Source of the DNA: Leptotrichia buccalis C-1013-b
GTDB lineage: Bacteria > Fusobacteriota > Fusobacteriia > Fusobacteriales > Leptotrichiaceae
Assembly (NCBI RefSeq): GCF_000023905.1
Contig: NC_013192.1
Span: 1,054,001 to 1,118,000, forward strand
Length of the DNA: 64,000 nucleotides
Reading direction: 5' to 3'
The translations under genes were made by a program, and so were the position numbers. The notes beneath the pieces are model-generated. The model was not told where the DNA came from. It saw only the letters and a list, made by a program, of their open reading frames with translations, and searched no databases. Each line of letters begins with the position of its first letter. Position 1 is the first letter of the stretch. This document shows, piece by piece, positions 25,519-34,150 of this stretch.

Positions 25519-26952
25519 ATGAGCGGACCTAAGGTAAGTAAGGCAGAATTAGACAGAATGAGACAAATAGAAGTACAGAAAAAAAAGCAGATTATGTGTG
25601 AAATTAAAAATAAAGAGAGGATAGTTAATAATTTTGATATAAGAATTATTGATTCTGATATTCATGAAAAGTTAGCTAAAAAATTTGAAATTATAAGAAA
25701 AAGATATTATAAAAGTTTAAATGAATTATCGAAAAAATCTAAAATTAAGATGGAAATTGATAAATTAGAAAGAATAAATGAAAATTCTGAAACAATATTA
25801 AGGAAATTTGAGAAGAGTTACGATACGGTATTTAAAAAAATTGAAGAAAATATTAATAAATTAAGTCAAAATGAAATTCAAGAAATAAAAATGAAAATAA
25901 TTCATTTAGTTGATGAAATTCCAGAAAAAGGGGAAACGGAAACTGAGATCATTTTAAAAAATGTAGAAAAAAATATAAATAAACTGTTTAAAGTAAATAA
26001 TAAAGATGTTGGAAAAATAAAGAATATAGAATTTCAGGAAATAAAATTAGAAAAACATGATAGAAGAAAGATATTTAGCTTTTCTATGAAAAATAAAAAA
26101 GTGAAAAAAAATGAAGAAATATCTTTATCATCTTCCAAAGAAATAGAACAAAATACAGAAGAAATTTTAGATAAACTTTATGATTTTATGAAGTCAGATA
26201 AATATACTATAGAAGACAGGCAGAGATTTCTTTGTATGGAAAAAGAAATTCTAGATATAAAAGAAGAAAAAGGAATCACTTTAGAAATAAAAAAATTATT
26301 GATATTGGAAAAAAAAGAAAATATAGAAACAAATTTAAAAAGAATAGAGGTAAATAATAAAGAAGTAGAATTTTTATATGATGATTATTTGAAAGAGGCG
26401 TACTATATTAATCATCAGAATATAAAATCAATAAGAGAATTTTCATCAAAAGAAGATATAAAAAGTGAGATTGAAATTTTGAGAAAAAAAGGTGAAGAAA
26501 TATCTAAGAGAGAATATATTAAGGAACAGCTTGATGAAGTTATGTTAAAGCACGGATATAATGTAATTGATTCTGAACATATAGAAAAAGCAAAAGAAGA
26601 TAACAGATTACTTTATGAAATTGATGATTCTACAGGAATAGATGTTTTTTTATCAGAAACCCAGACTCAGATGGTAACATTAAAAATTGTTGGAATTGGA
26701 TTTGATGAAGAAATAACAGAAAGAGAATCAGACAGGTTGTACGAGGAGCAATGCAATTTTTGTTCCATGTTTCCAGAGCTAGTAGAAGAATTAAGAATAA
26801 GAGGAGTTATACTTAATGAAGTAAGATATAATGAGGCTAATAAAAAGTATAATTCAAAAATCAAAATTAAAAAGAATGATAAGACCAAAAATAAAAAGAA
26901 AAAATCAAGAGAAAATATTAATAATAAAAAATATAGAGAAATTAAGAGGTAA
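25519..26952 (+). CDS. SGPK-type coiled-coil protein, first gene of the kinase operon
   Basis: A 477-residue soluble, Lys/Glu-rich protein. The chosen ATG (25519) gives the N-terminus MSGPKVSKAELDRMR and has an AAGGAGG ribosome site. An opening 'MSGPK' followed by a basic coiled coil is something I associate with uncharacterised proteins of bacterial signalling clusters; no function is known to me. Residues 20-340 are predicted coiled coil. Residues about 360-440 form a small acidic globular domain ('YEIDDSTGIDVFLSETQTQMVTL' split by two strands). The tail is very basic. The stop lies six bases before the FHA gene. It could be a scaffold or substrate of the kinase. Confidence 0.7.
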   Translation: MSGPKVSKAELDRMRQIEVQKKKQIMCEIKNKERIVNNFDIRIIDSDIHEKLAKKFEIIRKRYYKSLNELSKKSKIKMEIDKLERINENSETILRKFEKSYDTVFKKIEENINKLSQNEIQEIKMKIIHLVDEIPEKGETETEIILKNVEKNINKLFKVNNKDVGKIKNIEFQEIKLEKHDRRKIFSFSMKNKKVKKNEEISLSSSKEIEQNTEEILDKLYDFMKSDKYTIEDRQRFLCMEKEILDIKEEKGITLEIKKLLILEKKENIETNLKRIEVNNKEVEFLYDDYLKEAYYINHQNIKSIREFSSKEDIKSEIEILRKKGEEISKREYIKEQLDEVMLKHGYNVIDSEHIEKAKEDNRLLYEIDDSTGIDVFLSETQTQMVTLKIVGIGFDEEITERESDRLYEEQCNFCSMFPELVEELRIRGVILNEVRYNEANKKYNSKIKIKKNDKTKNKKKKSRENINNKKYREIKR

Positions 26953-26958
26953 ATAAAA

Positions 26959-27663
26959 ATGAAATGTCAATATTGTGGTTCAGAAATTGAAGATACAGAT
27001 AAGGGATGTCCTATTTGTTGTGACACGAATTTAACTGAAGAAGAAACTGTAAAAGGAAAAGTTGAGAAAGAAAATGAAAAAACAAACGAAGAAGGGTTAG
27101 AAAATGATGAATCTTCAAATAAAAAAGAGAAATGGATAGCTGAATGCATGGAAGGGCATAAAACAGAAATAGACAAAGATGACAAGGAATTTTATTGTGA
27201 AGAATGTGAAGAAAATTATATAATAAGAGATGACGGAATATGTAAAAAATATCCAAAGAATCAAGCAACAGATGTGAAAGATGATCTAAATTCAGACGAA
27301 AAAACAAATATTACAAATGAAAGAGCAGTATTAAGCGAAAAACAGAAAAACGAAGAATTAATTTCTTTAATTTGGAAAAATAATAAAAATGAAGTTATTA
27401 AAATACCTAAAAAAGGTGGAACTATTGGAAGAGACGGAGATTACGGCTCAAGTTTATTTAATAGATATTATATGAATACAATATCTAGACAGCACATCAA
27501 AATAGAATTCAAAGGTGGAGACTGGGTAATTTCTCATCTCAGTAAAGTAAATGATACAGAAATAAACGGAAAAAAACTGGAACATGATTCTTTTCTAATT
27601 TTAAAAAATAATGATGAAATAACACTTGCTAAAAAGATTTCTTTCAGAGTGGAAATTAAATAA
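26959..27663 (+). CDS. Zinc-ribbon and FHA-domain protein
   Basis: A 234-residue protein with three parts. Residues 1-25 hold a zinc ribbon (CQYCG...CPICC). Residues about 58-95 hold a second Cys/His cluster ('CMEGHK', 'CEECEENY'). Residues about 145-234 are an FHA domain with the hallmark 'GGTIGRDGDYG', 'SRQHIKIEF' and 'NDTEINGKKL' motifs that bind phosphothreonine. FHA proteins read the marks made by Ser/Thr kinases. The kinase gene of this operon carries an array of threonine repeats, an obvious ligand candidate. It starts six bases after the coiled-coil gene and abuts the radical SAM gene. Confidence 0.88.
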   Translation: MKCQYCGSEIEDTDKGCPICCDTNLTEEETVKGKVEKENEKTNEEGLENDESSNKKEKWIAECMEGHKTEIDKDDKEFYCEECEENYIIRDDGICKKYPKNQATDVKDDLNSDEKTNITNERAVLSEKQKNEELISLIWKNNKNEVIKIPKKGGTIGRDGDYGSSLFNRYYMNTISRQHIKIEFKGGDWVISHLSKVNDTEINGKKLEHDSFLILKNNDEITLAKKISFRVEIK

Positions 27664-28242
27664 ATGTATATTGACAGAATACTTTATCCGATTCATACTT
27701 TAGGTCCTGGAAATCGAGCCGTTATTTGGACGAAAGGGTGCTCAAAAGGGTGTAAAAATTGTTCTAACCCCGAATTATGGCATATAGGAAAAGCAGCAAA
27801 GAGCAGAAGTGTTAAGGAATTATTTCAAATTATATTAAATATAAGCAGAGAAAATCGAATAGATGGTATAACTTTTACTGGTGGAGATCCGATAGAGCAA
27901 TTTGATGAACTGATTGAGTTTATTAAGTTGCTTAAAGAAATAACAAATGATATTTTGGTTTATACAGGAGATTATTTTAAAGATTTAAGTAAAAATAGAC
28001 AGGAAAAAATCAAAAAAAATATTTCTGTCTTAATTGATGGACCATATATACATGAATTAAATTTTAAATATGTAAATTTAAGAGGGTCAAAAAATCAAAA
28101 TATTATATACTTTAATAAAAAATTGAAATATAAATATAAGAAATATATGAAAAAAGGCAGAATGATACAGAATATAATTATGGGAGAAAAAATAATATCT
28201 GTAGGAATACACGATAGGCAGGAGGAAAGTAACAGTGGATAA
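27664..28242 (+). CDS. Radical SAM activase-like protein (NrdG type)
   Basis: A 192-residue minimal radical SAM protein. The cluster motif CSKGCKNC (CxxxCxxC) lies near residue 26 in the sequence 'VIWTKGCSKGCKNCSNPELW', and 'TFTGGDPIEQF' near residue 76 is the SAM-binding GGE/GGD-type motif. It resembles activating enzymes such as NrdG, which generate a glycyl radical on a partner. No glycyl-radical enzyme lies nearby, so the substrate is unknown. It starts at the base after the FHA stop and overlaps the next gene by 8 bases, so it belongs to this operon. Confidence 0.85.
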   Translation: MYIDRILYPIHTLGPGNRAVIWTKGCSKGCKNCSNPELWHIGKAAKSRSVKELFQIILNISRENRIDGITFTGGDPIEQFDELIEFIKLLKEITNDILVYTGDYFKDLSKNRQEKIKKNISVLIDGPYIHELNFKYVNLRGSKNQNIIYFNKKLKYKYKKYMKKGRMIQNIIMGEKIISVGIHDRQEESNSG

Positions 28243-30067
28243 AAGACCAAAGTGGCAAAAAGAACTTGAAAGTTTTAAGGGAATAAAATCTACTTTTATA
28301 ATTGAAGGAAATATAAATGATATATACCCTTATTATTTGGATGAAAATAGTGTTAATTATTTAGATTTAGATTTTCTTTTAACTCAAATGCTTAAAATTG
28401 ATGAAGAAAGTAAAGATAATGATAAATTAGAATATGATTTTGTATTCTGTAATCCAGTTTTAGGATTTTACAATAAAAGAATTCACACTAATGTAGCTAA
28501 TGTTTTGAGAGATTTCGATAAATCTGGTAATAATATTTTTAAAAAAGAAAAACCGAATTACATAGTAGATGATATTGAAAAATTTTCAGTTATTGTTAAA
28601 GAGGCGATAACAAGTAAAAAAGAAAAACCCGTTGCAGTAATTATCAATTTTGCAGCAAGATACATATCTTCACCCACTTCATTAGATACAAATGAAAATA
28701 ATATGTTTATAAATCTATTTGAAGCTTCAATGAACGCAAAATCAGTTAAAGGTTATTCAAATACTTTGATATTAGTAGTTGAAAAGTTTAACGACCTTCC
28801 TTCCTGGTTTTATTATAATAATCCTAATGTTAGAACTATAACGATACCTAATCCTGATAAGAAAATAAGGCTTAATTATATAGAAAAAAATTATAAAAAT
28901 GAATTAGAAAATAATATAAAAATTAAGAGCAAATTTATTGATAATACAGAAGGCTTAAAAAATAGAGAATTGAAAGAATTAAAAAATCTTTATAAAAGAT
29001 ATAATAGAAAAGACTCTGATTATACGTTACTGGATGCTTTAACGATGTATAAGTATGGTATCAAGGAAAATATGTGGGAAACAATAGATGAAGAAACAGT
29101 AAATAATCTTGAAAATAGTTTAGAAGAGAGAGTAAAAGGGCAGGATAGGGCGGTTAAAAAGGTAAGTTCGGTTATAAAAAGAGCAGTTACAGGAATGTCA
29201 GGGTTACAACATTCATCAAATGGAAATAAACCTAAAGGAATTTTGTTTTTTGCAGGTCCTACAGGAACAGGTAAAACAGAGCTTACAAAAGCATTGGCAG
29301 AAGTGCTTTTTGGAGATGAAAATAACTGTATAAGATTTGATATGAGTGAATATTCAGAATCTCATTCAGATCAAAAATTATTTGGAGCTCCACCAGGATA
29401 TGTAGGATATGAAGCTGGAGGACAATTAACAAACGCAGTAAAAGAAAAGCCTTTTTCGATACTACTTTTTGATGAAATAGAAAAAGCTCATCCTTCGATA
29501 ATGGATAAATTTCTTCAAATTCTTGAAGATGGAAGAATGACAGATGGACAAGGAAACACAGTATATTTCTCTGAATCATTGATAATTTTCACTTCAAATT
29601 TAGGGATAACAAAAAAAACAATAGATTCTTCTGGAAATGAAAGAAGAGAACAGTTGGTAAGCATAGATGAAACTTATGAAAGTATGGAAAATAAAGTTAT
29701 AAATGGAATAAAAGCTCATTTTAAACCAGAAGTAGTTAATAGAATAGGAAATAATATAGTTGTATTTGATTTTATAAGAGATGAAGTATCTCAATTAATT
29801 GTAAAATCACAAATAAAGAAAATAAATGAAAATATAAAAAGATTAAAAAAAATAGATATAGAAATTAGTCAAGAAACGTTAGAATACTATTATAAATTAT
29901 CAAAAGAAAAAAATGTACTTGAAATGGGAGGAAGAGGAATAGGAAATATGATTGAAGAAAAATATATAAATGAGTTATCTAACTATATATTTGATTCGAG
30001 AAATGAAAAAGGTAAAATAATTATTTATGTTGAAAATGAAAAAATAAAGTTTAAAAAAGGAGAATAA
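28235..30067 (+). CDS. ClpB-like AAA+ ATPase with a degenerate first half
   Basis: A 610-residue protein. The C-terminal half is a complete ClpA/B D2-type AAA+ domain: Walker A GPTGTGKT near residue 340, pore loop GYVGYE near 388, Walker B LLFDEIEKAH near 410, sensor 1 'FTSNLG' near 450 and the arginine finger in 'FKPEVVNRIG' near 497, then the C-terminal small domain. The N-terminal 270 residues resemble an AAA+ fold in outline ('FIIEGNINDIYPYY', 'VAVIINFAARYI') but have no Walker A, so it is not a normal D1. There is no ClpB middle domain. GTG start with GGAGG ahead. Such machines unfold or remodel proteins. Confidence 0.85.
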   Translation: MDKRPKWQKELESFKGIKSTFIIEGNINDIYPYYLDENSVNYLDLDFLLTQMLKIDEESKDNDKLEYDFVFCNPVLGFYNKRIHTNVANVLRDFDKSGNNIFKKEKPNYIVDDIEKFSVIVKEAITSKKEKPVAVIINFAARYISSPTSLDTNENNMFINLFEASMNAKSVKGYSNTLILVVEKFNDLPSWFYYNNPNVRTITIPNPDKKIRLNYIEKNYKNELENNIKIKSKFIDNTEGLKNRELKELKNLYKRYNRKDSDYTLLDALTMYKYGIKENMWETIDEETVNNLENSLEERVKGQDRAVKKVSSVIKRAVTGMSGLQHSSNGNKPKGILFFAGPTGTGKTELTKALAEVLFGDENNCIRFDMSEYSESHSDQKLFGAPPGYVGYEAGGQLTNAVKEKPFSILLFDEIEKAHPSIMDKFLQILEDGRMTDGQGNTVYFSESLIIFTSNLGITKKTIDSSGNERREQLVSIDETYESMENKVINGIKAHFKPEVVNRIGNNIVVFDFIRDEVSQLIVKSQIKKINENIKRLKKIDIEISQETLEYYYKLSKEKNVLEMGGRGIGNMIEEKYINELSNYIFDSRNEKGKIIIYVENEKIKFKKGE

Positions 30068-30072
30068 TCTTT

Positions 30073-30828
30073 ATGTTTAAATATTGCTCAAGAAACGATA
30101 TTGGTGTTTTATACGGTATTAATGATGATAAATTTATGATTAATGATGTTATTGTAGAAACTGGAGATTATAAAGGTGAAGCTGGAAATTATATAAGTGC
30201 TGTATTATGTGATGGAGTAGGTGGACAATTAGAAGGTGACAGAGCCGCTTTAGAAACTCTAAAAAATCTAAAAGAAATAATAAAAGAAGATGTTGCAAAA
30301 GAAGAAATTATTGAGAAAGTAAAAGAAACTAATGATTTAATAAGAAAGCTTCAAAAAGAGGAAAATAAAGAAAATGGACTGAAAACTACATTAGTTGGGA
30401 TTTATGCAAATCAAGATGTTTTTATATATTATAATCTTGGAGACAGCAGGGCTTACCGATATAGAAAAGGTTATTTTCAAAGGTTGACAAGAGATGATTC
30501 AAAAATACAAGATATGCTGGATAGGGAAATTATAACAGAGGAAGAAGCGATGAATCATCCTGAAAAAAATATAATCAATAAATGTATCGGATATTCAGAT
30601 GAATGTGAGCTTAATATCTATTCTTCAAATATTGGATTAATACCTGATGATATTATATTTTTATGTTCAGATGGGGTTACAGATGTTATTGATGACGATA
30701 CATTGAAATCAATTTTTGATAAAAAAGGTTCAATAGAAGAAAGCTTGGAAGAAATACATTCTCTTAGTCTAAAAAATGGAAGTAAGGATAATATAAGCTT
30801 AATTATAATCAAAAAGGAGAACCAATAA
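30073..30828 (+). CDS. PP2C-type protein phosphatase
   Basis: A 251-residue metal-dependent Ser/Thr phosphatase. The metal-binding motifs are 'AVLCDGVGGQLEGD' near residue 50, 'YYNLGDSRAYRY' near 118, 'FLCSDGVTDVID' near 197 and 'KDNISLIII' near the C-terminus; these are the PP2C signature Asp residues. It is the natural antagonist of the kinase encoded one base later. It starts five bases after the AAA+ stop, so it is translated from the same mRNA. Confidence 0.93.
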   Translation: MFKYCSRNDIGVLYGINDDKFMINDVIVETGDYKGEAGNYISAVLCDGVGGQLEGDRAALETLKNLKEIIKEDVAKEEIIEKVKETNDLIRKLQKEENKENGLKTTLVGIYANQDVFIYYNLGDSRAYRYRKGYFQRLTRDDSKIQDMLDREIITEEEAMNHPEKNIINKCIGYSDECELNIYSSNIGLIPDDIIFLCSDGVTDVIDDDTLKSIFDKKGSIEESLEEIHSLSLKNGSKDNISLIIIKKENQ

Positions 30829-30829
30829 A

Positions 30830-33800
30830 ATGAGTGATAATAACAGAATACCAACAATGCCACAAAATGAAACTATTGAGAGAAGTGCAACAGTACCACA
30901 AAATGGAACTATTGAAAGAAGCGCAACAGTACCACAGAATGAAAACATTGAAAGAAATTCAACAGTGCCGCAAAATATAGATGCTGAAAGAGAATCTACG
31001 GTGCCACAAAATGATTTTAATAATATAAGAAATGAAGAAATAGATTTAGATGGAGAAAAAACTTATATTTCTGATAATGGACGTTTAACTTTAAAAATAA
31101 AAGATACAGATGAAATAAAAGTAAAAAGTGGAGAATCAAGACTTTTTAAAAATAAAGTTTATAATAATGAGGGAAAAGAAGTAGAAGTACTAATAAAAAT
31201 TCTTAAAAATATAGATATAGAATCTGATGCTAAAAAATTAGAGAATAGAAAAAAGATTCTTAAGTTAGTATATAAAAAAGGAAAAGAAGTAGAGAAAAAT
31301 AATTTAGCTAGAGTTATATCTTATGGAAAAGTCATTACAGAAAAAAATCATGAATATTTTGCAGAAGTTTATCGATATTATTCAGGTGGAGATTTGTTTA
31401 ATAAAGCACCTTTAAAATATGAAGAACTAGAAAAAAATGTAATTCCTTCACTACTTAAAGCTTTGAGATATCTACATAGCCATAATATAGTTCATAGAGA
31501 TATAAAACCTGAAAATATTTATATTGATGATAAAGGGAAAATATACTTAGGAGATTTTGGAATAGCACGTTATATAGAAAGTAATATAGATTATGATGAA
31601 AAAAAATTTGGAACTTTAGGATATGCTGCACCAGAGTTATTACTTCCTAATACAGGAAGAGTTAAAAAAGAATCTGATTATTATTCATTAGGACAGACAT
31701 TGTATACTTTATTTACAAAAAAATTAATGTATGAGTCTGTTAAAGATAAAAAATTACTTAATGATGATATGATGAGTGATAAATATTATGGATTGTCAAG
31801 ATTAAATGAACATAAGTTATTTGAAGCTTTAATAAGAGGGCTGTTAAAATATTCTCCTGCAGATAGATTTAATGATAAACATATAGAAAGATTTTTAAAG
31901 GGAGATAATACTTTAAAAAGAGAAGTAAAAATGGAAGAAGAGGGTAATTTTGATTTTCCTTTAAGGATCTATGGAAAAACTCTTTGGTCTAAAAATGAAA
32001 TGTATGACTTCTTAATTCAAAATAAAGATAAAGCAGACGAGATATTAAATAATGAGTTTCTTTCGCAAAATTTTGAAAAAAATAATATGCTGTATGATGC
32101 AAAAAAAATGTCAGATATAGAAAGATTATATTTAACTGGAGATAATTTCGAGAAAAAATATCAACTTTTTGAATTATATAAATTTTTAAAAGATGAATAT
32201 ATATTTGTATGGGGAAATGAAGAAATAAAAAACTATAAACAAATTCCCTTTATTCCACATCAAGAGTTAAAACGTCTTCTTCAAAGAGGAGCTATACAAG
32301 AATTTTTAACAAAATCAGAATTTGATACTAAATTCATAGAAAGACTTGAAGAAATCAAGAATTATAAAAGTATACTAATAGCTTTTATATTAATAATTTG
32401 TTTTGATCCTGATAATAATGGAAAAAATGTAAAAGAATATACATATCGAAGAAAAGATTTTAATGATTTAATCAAAGAATGGATTAATAATAAAAATGAG
32501 GCATTGACACCATTATTAGCTTTATTGTATATTAATGGATATGATGTGGATATAAATGAAAATAGCTTTAATATGTTGAAATTTTTAATGGCACTTGAGA
32601 AAGAAGCAAAAGAAGATGAAGTCAAATTAAAAATAAGGGAAAAATTTTTAGAAAGAAACATAAACAATATTAATTACAAATATAACAAATTAAAAACCGT
32701 AATAAATGACATTAATAGCTCTAAATATGAAGCAACTGGTTTAGAATCACAAGAAATATTAGATAATATTTGTAATTGCCAAATTTTTCTAGAAAAAATG
32801 GATATAAACGAAATAATGAGAACCATTAATAATTTTGAAAATAAGTATCAAGAATTTGAAAGAAGATTTGAAAATAACCCATATAGTGTAATAATGAAAT
32901 CTTATCCTGAAGATGTAATTGTAACAAGACATTATAGCAAATATCCCCAAAATATAGAATTAAGAAAATACAATGAAGATTTTAAAAAAGAAGTCTCTGA
33001 AAAAAAATTATCATTGAAAAATTTAACAAAATATCTGGGAAATGTCAGAATAGCACCATTCTATTTAGCTTCGATAATATCATTCATTTTAGGGTATGTC
33101 TTTAGTATAAATAATTTGTATGCTAATATTGAAAATGTGGGAATAAGAGATATTCTTCCAACATTTCAGTATTTATTTTATGGAATAGGAGTATATTTTA
33201 TAATTAAAGCTGTAACTTTTACAATATTACAGATGAGTACAGATTATAAAGTCATTGAAAGAGAATATGATATTCTTTTTGAGAGAACTTTTGGAAATGA
33301 TTATGAAAAAAATATAGATCGAATATCTGATTTAATTCATAGACAAGCACAAGGAAAATTTGAGGAAGATTATTCTGAAGCTGAGAAAAAATTATATGAA
33401 TTAGCTAAAAAGTATGGTCAATCTGTCGATAATTATAAAAAAATAAGAAAAATAATAGAAAAAATACAGCATGTACTTCCAGTGTTATCTATGACGTCAA
33501 TATTGTTTTTTACGTTTAAGAATCTTGATATTTTTGCTAATGAGTATTTCTTCTTTAAAATGTACTGTTATCTTCTATTTCTTGCAACAATATATATATT
33601 TGCAATAGAGACGCACATAGACACTTACTTTTCATATTCAGTAAAAATATGGTCAACATTATCAATAATTTCAATAATTGGAGTCTATACTTATAACCGT
33701 TCAATTGAATACACTTTAAACTCTTTAATTCCTTGCGGAATAGCAGTAGTACTTTTTGCGATGCTATGGAAGAATATTGAAAAAATTATTGAATCTATTG

Positions 33801-34150
33801 ATACAAGTACTATAAAAGGTGTATTATTTTACATTATGTTAATTCCTGGAATTTTAGTTCCGCTTAGTTTACTAACTACGTCTCAACAAATAGGATGGTT
33901 TTATTTTTCTTTATTATTAGCAGTGCCAGCTGCGATTGGAATGTTTTTAAACAGTGGTAATCTTTTTTCAGGATATGTTTTATATAAAATACCATTTGCA
34001 TTATTGGGATATTCTTTAATAGGAATGACTCAAACTTCGATGTTTAGTTTAACGGGAATTTTCAATGGATTTATAGTACTTCTTTTAGGAGATGTCTTAG
34101 TAGTGATTGTTCTGATGATTCTGTTTGGAGTAATTGCATCAATCTTTTAA
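30830..34150 (+). CDS. Membrane Ser/Thr protein kinase with Thr-repeat N-terminus
   Basis: An 1106-residue kinase. Residues 6-61 hold five 12-residue repeats with Thr at exactly 9, 21, 33, 45 and 57, each followed by V/M-P-Q-N. The Hanks-type kinase domain covers about 85-345: Lys in 'VEVLIKILKN', HRDIKPEN near 221, GDFGIAR near 242 and 'GTLGYAAPELL' near 261. Then comes an approximately 390-residue helical region with no recognised domain, a first pair of membrane helices near 745-795, a soluble loop and about seven more membrane helices from 880 to the end. The Thr repeats look like autophosphorylation sites for the FHA protein. It starts one base after the phosphatase stop. Confidence 0.92.
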   Translation: MSDNNRIPTMPQNETIERSATVPQNGTIERSATVPQNENIERNSTVPQNIDAERESTVPQNDFNNIRNEEIDLDGEKTYISDNGRLTLKIKDTDEIKVKSGESRLFKNKVYNNEGKEVEVLIKILKNIDIESDAKKLENRKKILKLVYKKGKEVEKNNLARVISYGKVITEKNHEYFAEVYRYYSGGDLFNKAPLKYEELEKNVIPSLLKALRYLHSHNIVHRDIKPENIYIDDKGKIYLGDFGIARYIESNIDYDEKKFGTLGYAAPELLLPNTGRVKKESDYYSLGQTLYTLFTKKLMYESVKDKKLLNDDMMSDKYYGLSRLNEHKLFEALIRGLLKYSPADRFNDKHIERFLKGDNTLKREVKMEEEGNFDFPLRIYGKTLWSKNEMYDFLIQNKDKADEILNNEFLSQNFEKNNMLYDAKKMSDIERLYLTGDNFEKKYQLFELYKFLKDEYIFVWGNEEIKNYKQIPFIPHQELKRLLQRGAIQEFLTKSEFDTKFIERLEEIKNYKSILIAFILIICFDPDNNGKNVKEYTYRRKDFNDLIKEWINNKNEALTPLLALLYINGYDVDINENSFNMLKFLMALEKEAKEDEVKLKIREKFLERNINNINYKYNKLKTVINDINSSKYEATGLESQEILDNICNCQIFLEKMDINEIMRTINNFENKYQEFERRFENNPYSVIMKSYPEDVIVTRHYSKYPQNIELRKYNEDFKKEVSEKKLSLKNLTKYLGNVRIAPFYLASIISFILGYVFSINNLYANIENVGIRDILPTFQYLFYGIGVYFIIKAVTFTILQMSTDYKVIEREYDILFERTFGNDYEKNIDRISDLIHRQAQGKFEEDYSEAEKKLYELAKKYGQSVDNYKKIRKIIEKIQHVLPVLSMTSILFFTFKNLDIFANEYFFFKMYCYLLFLATIYIFAIETHIDTYFSYSVKIWSTLSIISIIGVYTYNRSIEYTLNSLIPCGIAVVLFAMLWKNIEKIIESIDTSTIKGVLFYIMLIPGILVPLSLLTTSQQIGWFYFSLLLAVPAAIGMFLNSGNLFSGYVLYKIPFALLGYSLIGMTQTSMFSLTGIFNGFIVLLLGDVLVVIVLMILFGVIASIF

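Follow-up and report, generated by a model that had tools for sequence, protein, structure and literature searches.

A repeated threonine motif in the N-terminal tail of a bacterial cassette kinase: a candidate phosphorylation-dependent docking strip for an FHA protein

Introduction

What is served by five copies of one threonine motif, set in tandem at the very start of a bacterial protein kinase? The kinase is encoded in the single-contig genome (2,465,610 bases) of Leptotrichia buccalis C-1013-b, within a stretch of 64,000 nucleotides that was analysed as a whole and is termed the window hereafter. An earlier sequence-only reading had described Thr residues at positions 9, 21, 33, 45 and 57, exactly 12 apart and each followed by (V/M)-P-Q-N, which was confirmed by translation of 30830–34150 (1106 residues). 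It had further proposed that these residues are autophosphorylated and recruit an FHA protein encoded nearby, and that the response could be tuned by the number of marks. The analysis reported here suggests that the tail is probably a disordered multi-site docking strip, the motifs of which, once phosphorylated, would dock the FHA protein of the same gene cassette in a manner reversed by a PP2C-type phosphatase.

Materials and methods

The survey comprised 90 loci, namely the best 80 of 114 radical SAM relatives, which were obtained by scanning public genomes with a radical SAM alignment, along with the corresponding locus of genome G006 from the same phylum, eight plasmid loci found via the AAA+ protein, and the window. 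Loci were typed with FHA and kinase HMMs, each seeded with two to four sequences. In addition, genome contigs were scanned with the whole kinase and viral contigs with the radical SAM alignment; each scan matched a pattern in 24 stretches and yielded zero relatives. A tblastn search of plasmids and phages with the kinase returned no match covering 80% of the query.

Results

The cassette and its kinase

The kinase gene comes last in a set of six; in order, those before it encode an MSGPK coiled-coil protein, a zinc-ribbon FHA protein, a radical SAM protein, a ClpB-like AAA+ ATPase and a PP2C phosphatase (Table 1). The FHA gene, which had been placed three genes upstream of the kinase, lies four upstream, with three genes between the two. 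The Pfam match and the four catalytic residues listed in Table 1 identify the kinase as Hanks-type. It is not of the PASTA/PknB (Stk1) type, as no Pfam match to PASTA repeats was found in it; its score against the Stk1-type model NF033483 (81.9 bits) is far below the cut-off of 450 bits. Seven hydrophobic segments are found between residues 739 and 1088 of its C-terminal part.

Table 1. Features of the cassette and of the window kinase, in window coordinates
Feature	Coordinates	Strand	Remark
MSGPK coiled-coil protein	25519..26952	+	ORF start may be GTG 25498
Zinc-ribbon protein with C-terminal FHA domain (residues 155–223), proposed reader of the phospho-Thr tail	26959..27663	+	
NrdG-like radical SAM / 4Fe-4S single-cluster protein	27664..28242	+	Profile matches
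ClpB/DolB-like AAA+ ATPase with its own N-terminal domain	28235..30067	+	Profile matches
PP2C-type phosphatase (Stp1-like)	30073..30828	+	Profile matches
Hanks-type Ser/Thr kinase, 1106 aa: Thr-repeat tail, kinase domain, long C-terminal part	30830..34150	+	Pkinase PF00069, E 1.1e-32
N-terminal tail, residues 1–67, predicted disordered, five Thr motifs	30830..31030	+	pLDDT
Motif copy 1, RIPTMPQN, Thr9	30845..30868	+	
Motif copy 2, RSATVPQN, Thr21	30881..30904	+	
Motif copy 3, RSATVPQN, Thr33	30917..30940	+	
Motif copy 4, RNSTVPQN, Thr45	30953..30976	+	
Motif copy 5, RESTVPQN, Thr57	30989..31012	+	
Kinase domain, residues about 77–356; K123, HRD D224, N229, DFG D242	31058..31897	+	

The zinc-ribbon protein was recognized as an FHA protein by its profile match (PF00498, E 8.3e-10), its fold and its Gly-Arg, Ser and Asn pocket residues. 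Its FHA region was modelled confidently, with block means of 87–97 from residue 131 onwards, and the best structural matches of this model were themselves FHA domains, of DgcB and of Rad53 type, several of them with phospho-Thr peptides according to the entry titles. Matches to the MSGPK family occur in 61 of the 90 loci, and the N-terminus MSGPK is identical in three aligned members.

Elsewhere in this genome, two regions (G000:C1:463862–469708 and 992849–1028138) that resemble copies of one another together code for two additional short kinases, neither with a Thr tail, and for three additional FHA proteins. The notion that a Thr tail is a general trait of the kinases of this genome was discarded, since those of L118 and L119 start almost directly with the kinase domain.

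The Thr-repeat tail of the window kinase

All five Thr residues stand in R-x-x-T-(M/V)-P-Q-N, with Arg at −3 in five of five copies, and all copies are contained in the first 61 residues. In the structure model, pLDDT values were below 50 at residues 1–4 and 6–67, followed by a kinase domain that was mostly confident. Clustered S/T-Q dipeptides, as in an SQ/TQ cluster domain, are absent from the tail, in which Gln is found at +3 and not at +1.

The five-copy motif is more than chance. The motif R-x-x-T-(V/M/I)-P-Q was searched for as degenerate DNA, a form in which Ser is also allowed in place of Arg, and Ala at +1. This pattern gave eight matches in the whole 2.47-Mb genome, five of them in the window tail, compared with two for the reversed-pattern control. 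With three extra DNA-level matches against these two, the existence of many further motif targets across the genome is unsupported.

Related loci

The cassette recurs in Clostridia and other bacteria, and most of the kinases encoded in such cassettes have a tail in which a Thr motif is repeated. FHA and kinase were found together in 50 of the 90 loci, FHA alone in 16, the kinase alone in four and neither in 20, counts that are phylogenetically non-independent and in which many loci end at contig ends. As cassettes are inherited as a unit, the co-occurrence of FHA and kinase does not constitute independent evidence. The AAA+/radical SAM pair is also present, without kinase or FHA, on proteobacterial plasmids (L019, L020, L022, L023 and L024), where it adjoins a PIN-domain protein and a large AAA-domain protein.

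Within the phylum, the kinase was present in 2 of 98 genomes, that of the window and G006. The two kinases are 51% identical, and the G006 tail comprises three R-x-x-T-(M/I)-P-Q motifs, with Thr spacings of 11 and 10, plus a fourth in which Ala replaces Thr. The motif R-x-x-T-(M/V/I)-P-Q has thus been kept between both proteins, with changed spacing and linkers. The same six genes are found in G006, where an insertion (L015:7320–9500) containing an ORF that we take to be transposon-type and TnpB-like splits the AAA+ gene. Given the interrupted AAA+ gene and the tail Thr replaced by Ala, this cassette may be decaying.

Most kinase tails in the surveyed loci carry motifs of the T-V-I-N-P or T-E-I-N-S type (T-x-I-N class). 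The PQ class, T-(M/V/I/L)-P-Q, has five members: the kinases of the window, G006, L025 (five copies) and L085 (eight copies), and the cut-off start of a kinase gene in L027 (five copies), which was recognized as such by its place after PP2C (ORF L027:13350). In addition, KTQAMGVG-like copies are present in L028 and KTMIMP-like copies in L081. Other cassette proteins were considered as motif carriers and rejected, as no locus ORF outside the kinase tails has two TMPQ-type motifs. Four non-kinase ORFs with clustered T-x-I-N matches were found, which are unlike the kinase tails.

Threonine preference in the tails

The anchor position was left free and its occupancy was counted in the 58 kinase ORFs from the 90 loci. 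For the x-I-N pattern, it was Thr in 102 of 113 matches (99 of 110 with identical tails counted once) and Ser in two; the 25 matches to the PQ pattern comprised 21 with Thr and none with Ser. Both patterns had been written after the tails were inspected. Taken together, the tails comprise 2999 residues, of which 265 are Thr and 263 Ser. Across the five PQ-class proteins, Thr anchors 26 of 27 copies, and the residue at −3 is Arg in 22 of the 27 and His in five L027 copies.

Because the patterns followed inspection, two class-free tests were run, in both of which identical tails were counted once and tails shorter than 25 residues, among them those of L028 and L046, were omitted. The first, performed on 54 distinct tails including the cut-off L027 kinase start, measured the within-tail similarity of the residues at +1 to +3 after Thr, which gave z = 18.1 against shuffles, compared with −1.0 for Ser, 0.8 for Ala and 3.6 for Asn as anchors; the residues at −3 to −1 before Thr gave z = 6.6. 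In the second, performed on 53 tails without the L027 start, a Thr-anchored 3-mer was repeated in 43 tails (shuffle mean 7.9, maximum 16) and a Ser-anchored one in 14 (shuffle mean 8.5, maximum 15). Among FHA-bearing loci, the repeated-Thr test failed for the kinases of L026, L044, L048, L077, L082 and L093 and for the two full L027 kinases. Of these, the L093 kinase has a single motif alongside FHA in its locus, and the L026 and L077 tails show looser repeats by eye.

These results bear on two readings of the tail other than phospho-dependent FHA docking. In one, the phosphorylated tail would serve the kinase itself as a pseudosubstrate or autoregulatory strip, and the FHA protein would read something else. 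Arg at −3 followed by a hydrophobic residue at +1 does look like a kinase recognition motif, at least in those PQ-class copies that have the Arg; moreover, some bacterial kinases prefer Thr, and the preference seen in the tails could stem partly from the kinase rather than from the reader. However, the T-x-I-N tails do not share the Arg at −3, in L027 this residue is His, and a pseudosubstrate needs no multiple copies. Furthermore, the more strongly conserved side is that after Thr, which is the side read by FHA domains: according to the accessible part of PMC4037201, these bind phospho-Thr and not phospho-Ser, with pTXXI, pTXXT and Asp+3 ligands. We consider such an autoregulatory role unlikely.

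In the other reading, the tail would bind PP2C, the AAA+ protein or the FHA protein through unphosphorylated repeated motifs. Tandem short linear motifs are common docking sites, and Pro-Gln or Ile-Asn could be read without a phosphate, but an anchor Thr that is almost never replaced, in a cassette that encodes a kinase, a PP2C phosphatase and an FHA domain, makes phosphate-free docking quite improbable. We retain the phosphorylated docking strip as the preferred reading.

Spacing and duplication

A reading of the exact 12-residue spacing as a conserved ruler was considered and rejected. Evenly spaced arrays account for 5 of the 26 with three or more motifs, and the PQ-class Thr spacings are four times 12 (window), four times 14, four times 13, 11–17, and 11 and 10 (G006), the spacing being exact in the window, L025 and L027 tails. 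Because copy number and spacing vary, the 12-residue step reflects local duplication and is not a conserved feature. At the DNA level, Tandem Repeats Finder detected a 36-bp unit at 30852–30976, with 3.5 copies, 83% matches and a score of 166. The five copies in the window differ from each other only synonymously at Thr, Pro and Gln, each of these codons varying in 4 of 10 copy pairs, and use the same codons for Arg and Asn; differences at positions −2 and −1 and in the linker are mostly amino-acid-changing.

The view that the repeat is a recent and functionless tandem DNA duplication in a tolerant N-terminus, to which the visible 36-bp unit, the three exactly spaced tails and the varying copy number would point, is largely refuted and can hardly be right, given the synonymous changes at Thr, Pro and Gln against amino-acid changes in the linkers of the window copies, the use of all four Thr codons at the unchanged Thr of L085, and the persistence of the motif across species despite altered spacing and linkers.

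Kinase and FHA pockets

Of the 58 kinase ORFs aligned, 54 have the full catalytic set of Lys, HRD-Asp, Asn and DFG-Asp; the exceptions are those of L025 and L085 (Lys replaced by Arg), L018 and L046. The kinases of L025 (13221–14876) and L085 (11074–13479) have the most perfect RIPTMPQ arrays, yet an Arg is aligned with the usual ATP-binding Lys, and autophosphorylation in these two is doubtful for this reason. In 41 aligned FHA proteins, G157, S176 and N198 are invariant, and R158, H179, T200 and N203 are at least 90% conserved.

The L046 kinase lacks the tail, and its metal-binding Asn and DFG-Asp are replaced. The FHA-like protein of this locus has its pocket Arg and Ser replaced and shows no Pfam FHA domain at E 0.01, and a divergent PP2C (PF13672, E 4e-23) is still encoded upstream. 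As a single case noticed post hoc, this joint loss of tail, kinase metal ligands and FHA pocket offers a lead and carries no statistical weight. A search for relatives of the L046 kinase gave 2 of 250 genomes; the second, L142, is a distant relative (24% match) that has no tail and in which HRD and DFG are intact. The region L046:3014–5415 adjoins vWA-type genes, one of them Pfam-confirmed, and the divergent PP2C, a neighbourhood that presumably resembles TerY-like sets. The TerY-type triad consists of kinase, phosphatase and vWA protein; vWA is present in L046, and no match to it was found among the six window proteins.

Of the remaining cases, L018 and L076 have no FHA in reach and no repeated Thr motif. 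In L036 and L054, the tail motif is present and the locus itself yielded no FHA gene; FHA proteins are encoded elsewhere in these genomes.

Discussion

Proposed mechanism

The proposal that phospho-Thr marks on the tail are read by the cassette FHA protein has gained strong, though indirect, support from the Thr-specific conservation, the predicted disorder of the tail and the intact pockets, as well as from tail–FHA co-occurrence in cassettes and the joint loss in L046; in the two relatives with Arg for Lys, this change speaks against simple autophosphorylation. As envisaged, the kinase would phosphorylate its own N-terminal tail at Thr in several of the R-x-x-T-(M/V)-P-Q-N motifs, and these sites would be bound by the FHA domain of the zinc-ribbon protein, which is encoded in the same operon. 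The FHA protein would thereby bring itself to the kinase, here probably at the membrane, and would, more speculatively, probably act as an adaptor for the ClpB-like AAA+ machine and its radical SAM partner, a link between FHA and AAA+ that is conjecture. Several motif copies would provide avidity, their exact spacing being unimportant, and the same-operon PP2C would erase the marks. Similar kinase tails are found beside an FHA gene in many gut bacteria, in line with a switchable docking strip.

Comparison with known systems

Multi-phospho-Thr clusters read by FHA domains are already known from yeast, and FHA–kinase–phosphatase circuits from bacteria. The Thr cluster of yeast Rad53 SCD1 is N-terminal. 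As in our proposal, the Rad53 SCD1–Dun1 pair involves a Thr cluster on a kinase that is read by the FHA domain of another protein, and the Dun1 FHA ligand carries two phospho-Thr, as stated in the portion of PMC4037201 available. The cassettes differ in having T-(M/V)-P-Q or T-x-I-N in place of T-Q, in the tandem array and bacterial setting, and in that the writer is presumably the kinase itself.

The T6SS pathway of PpkA, PppA, Fha and ClpV likewise combines a kinase, a phosphatase, an FHA protein and a Clp-family AAA+ protein; in the accessible sections of PMC3953482, TssL phosphorylated at Thr14 is bound by Fha, and ClpV1 foci depend on Fha1. The cassette adds a radical SAM and an MSGPK protein, and its proposed phospho-ligand is the repeated kinase tail. 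The T6SS sheath protein TssC/VipB (PF05943) had 0 matches in the whole window genome. In Mycobacterium tuberculosis, the FHA domains of Rv1747, the kinase PknF and the phosphatase PstP control reversible condensation in vitro, as reported in the part of PMC9312465 consulted; there, FHA domains and a disordered linker reside in one transporter, whereas in the cassette the repeats are on the kinase and FHA is separate. Finally, the FHA domain of Bdellovibrio DgcB (PDB 6hc1) is among the best sequence and fold matches to that of the window. According to the entry title, its ligand is a phosphorylated N-terminal peptide, which belongs to the same GGDEF-domain protein, in contrast to the repeated tail on a separate kinase in the cassette.

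A literature search of open-licence papers found no description of the cassette or its tail, and neither is described in the sections of PMC7159879 available. The conserved tandem Thr array on a cassette kinase would be a new form of the known FHA-docking principle.

Possible role in defence

The window AAA+ protein matches DolB of Dodola (E 4.4e-20) and PDC-M37B (E 5.6e-26) in a library used without a cut-off, a similarity that lies mostly in the AAA+ part and to which general ClpB likeness contributes. We know of no kinase, PP2C, FHA or radical SAM gene in Dodola. The partner of DolB is a DUF6414 protein, and no Pfam match to DUF6414 was found among the six window cassette proteins. The names PDC-M37 and Dodola overlap, as one occurrence is called both in the accessible text of a defence-system survey (PMC11811056).

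A DUF4011 helicase-nuclease like that of L043, which matches PDC-S37 and Hhe, is encoded in 25 of the 90 loci, mostly just upstream of the kinase, and is absent from the window cassette. In Clostridia, it often adjoins the kinase (L043, L017 and L081). Because of the PDC-M37B/DolB matches of the AAA+ protein and these 25 loci, a role of the cassette in defence is plausible, though a weaker inference than docking. A bolder extension, which we regard as tentative and rather doubtful, would have a widespread defence-like machine in which the kinase counts its own activation, each phospho-Thr motif docking one FHA–zinc-ribbon protein. The bound FHA proteins would cluster the ClpB-like ATPase, along with the DUF4011 helicase-nuclease in many Clostridia, and PP2C would reset the system, making it a prokaryotic counterpart of Rad53 SCD–FHA.

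Implications

At the level of sequence, the analysis predicts, for the family as a whole, which residues these many bacterial kinases may phosphorylate and which protein may read them. Natural variation in the number of motifs (from one to eight), in motif class (several, each paired with its own FHA protein) and in integrity (one decayed set) offers a test bed for the number of phosphorylated sites that an FHA reader requires. Should the cassette prove to serve defence, it would reveal how phosphorylation turns a ClpB-like machine on and off.
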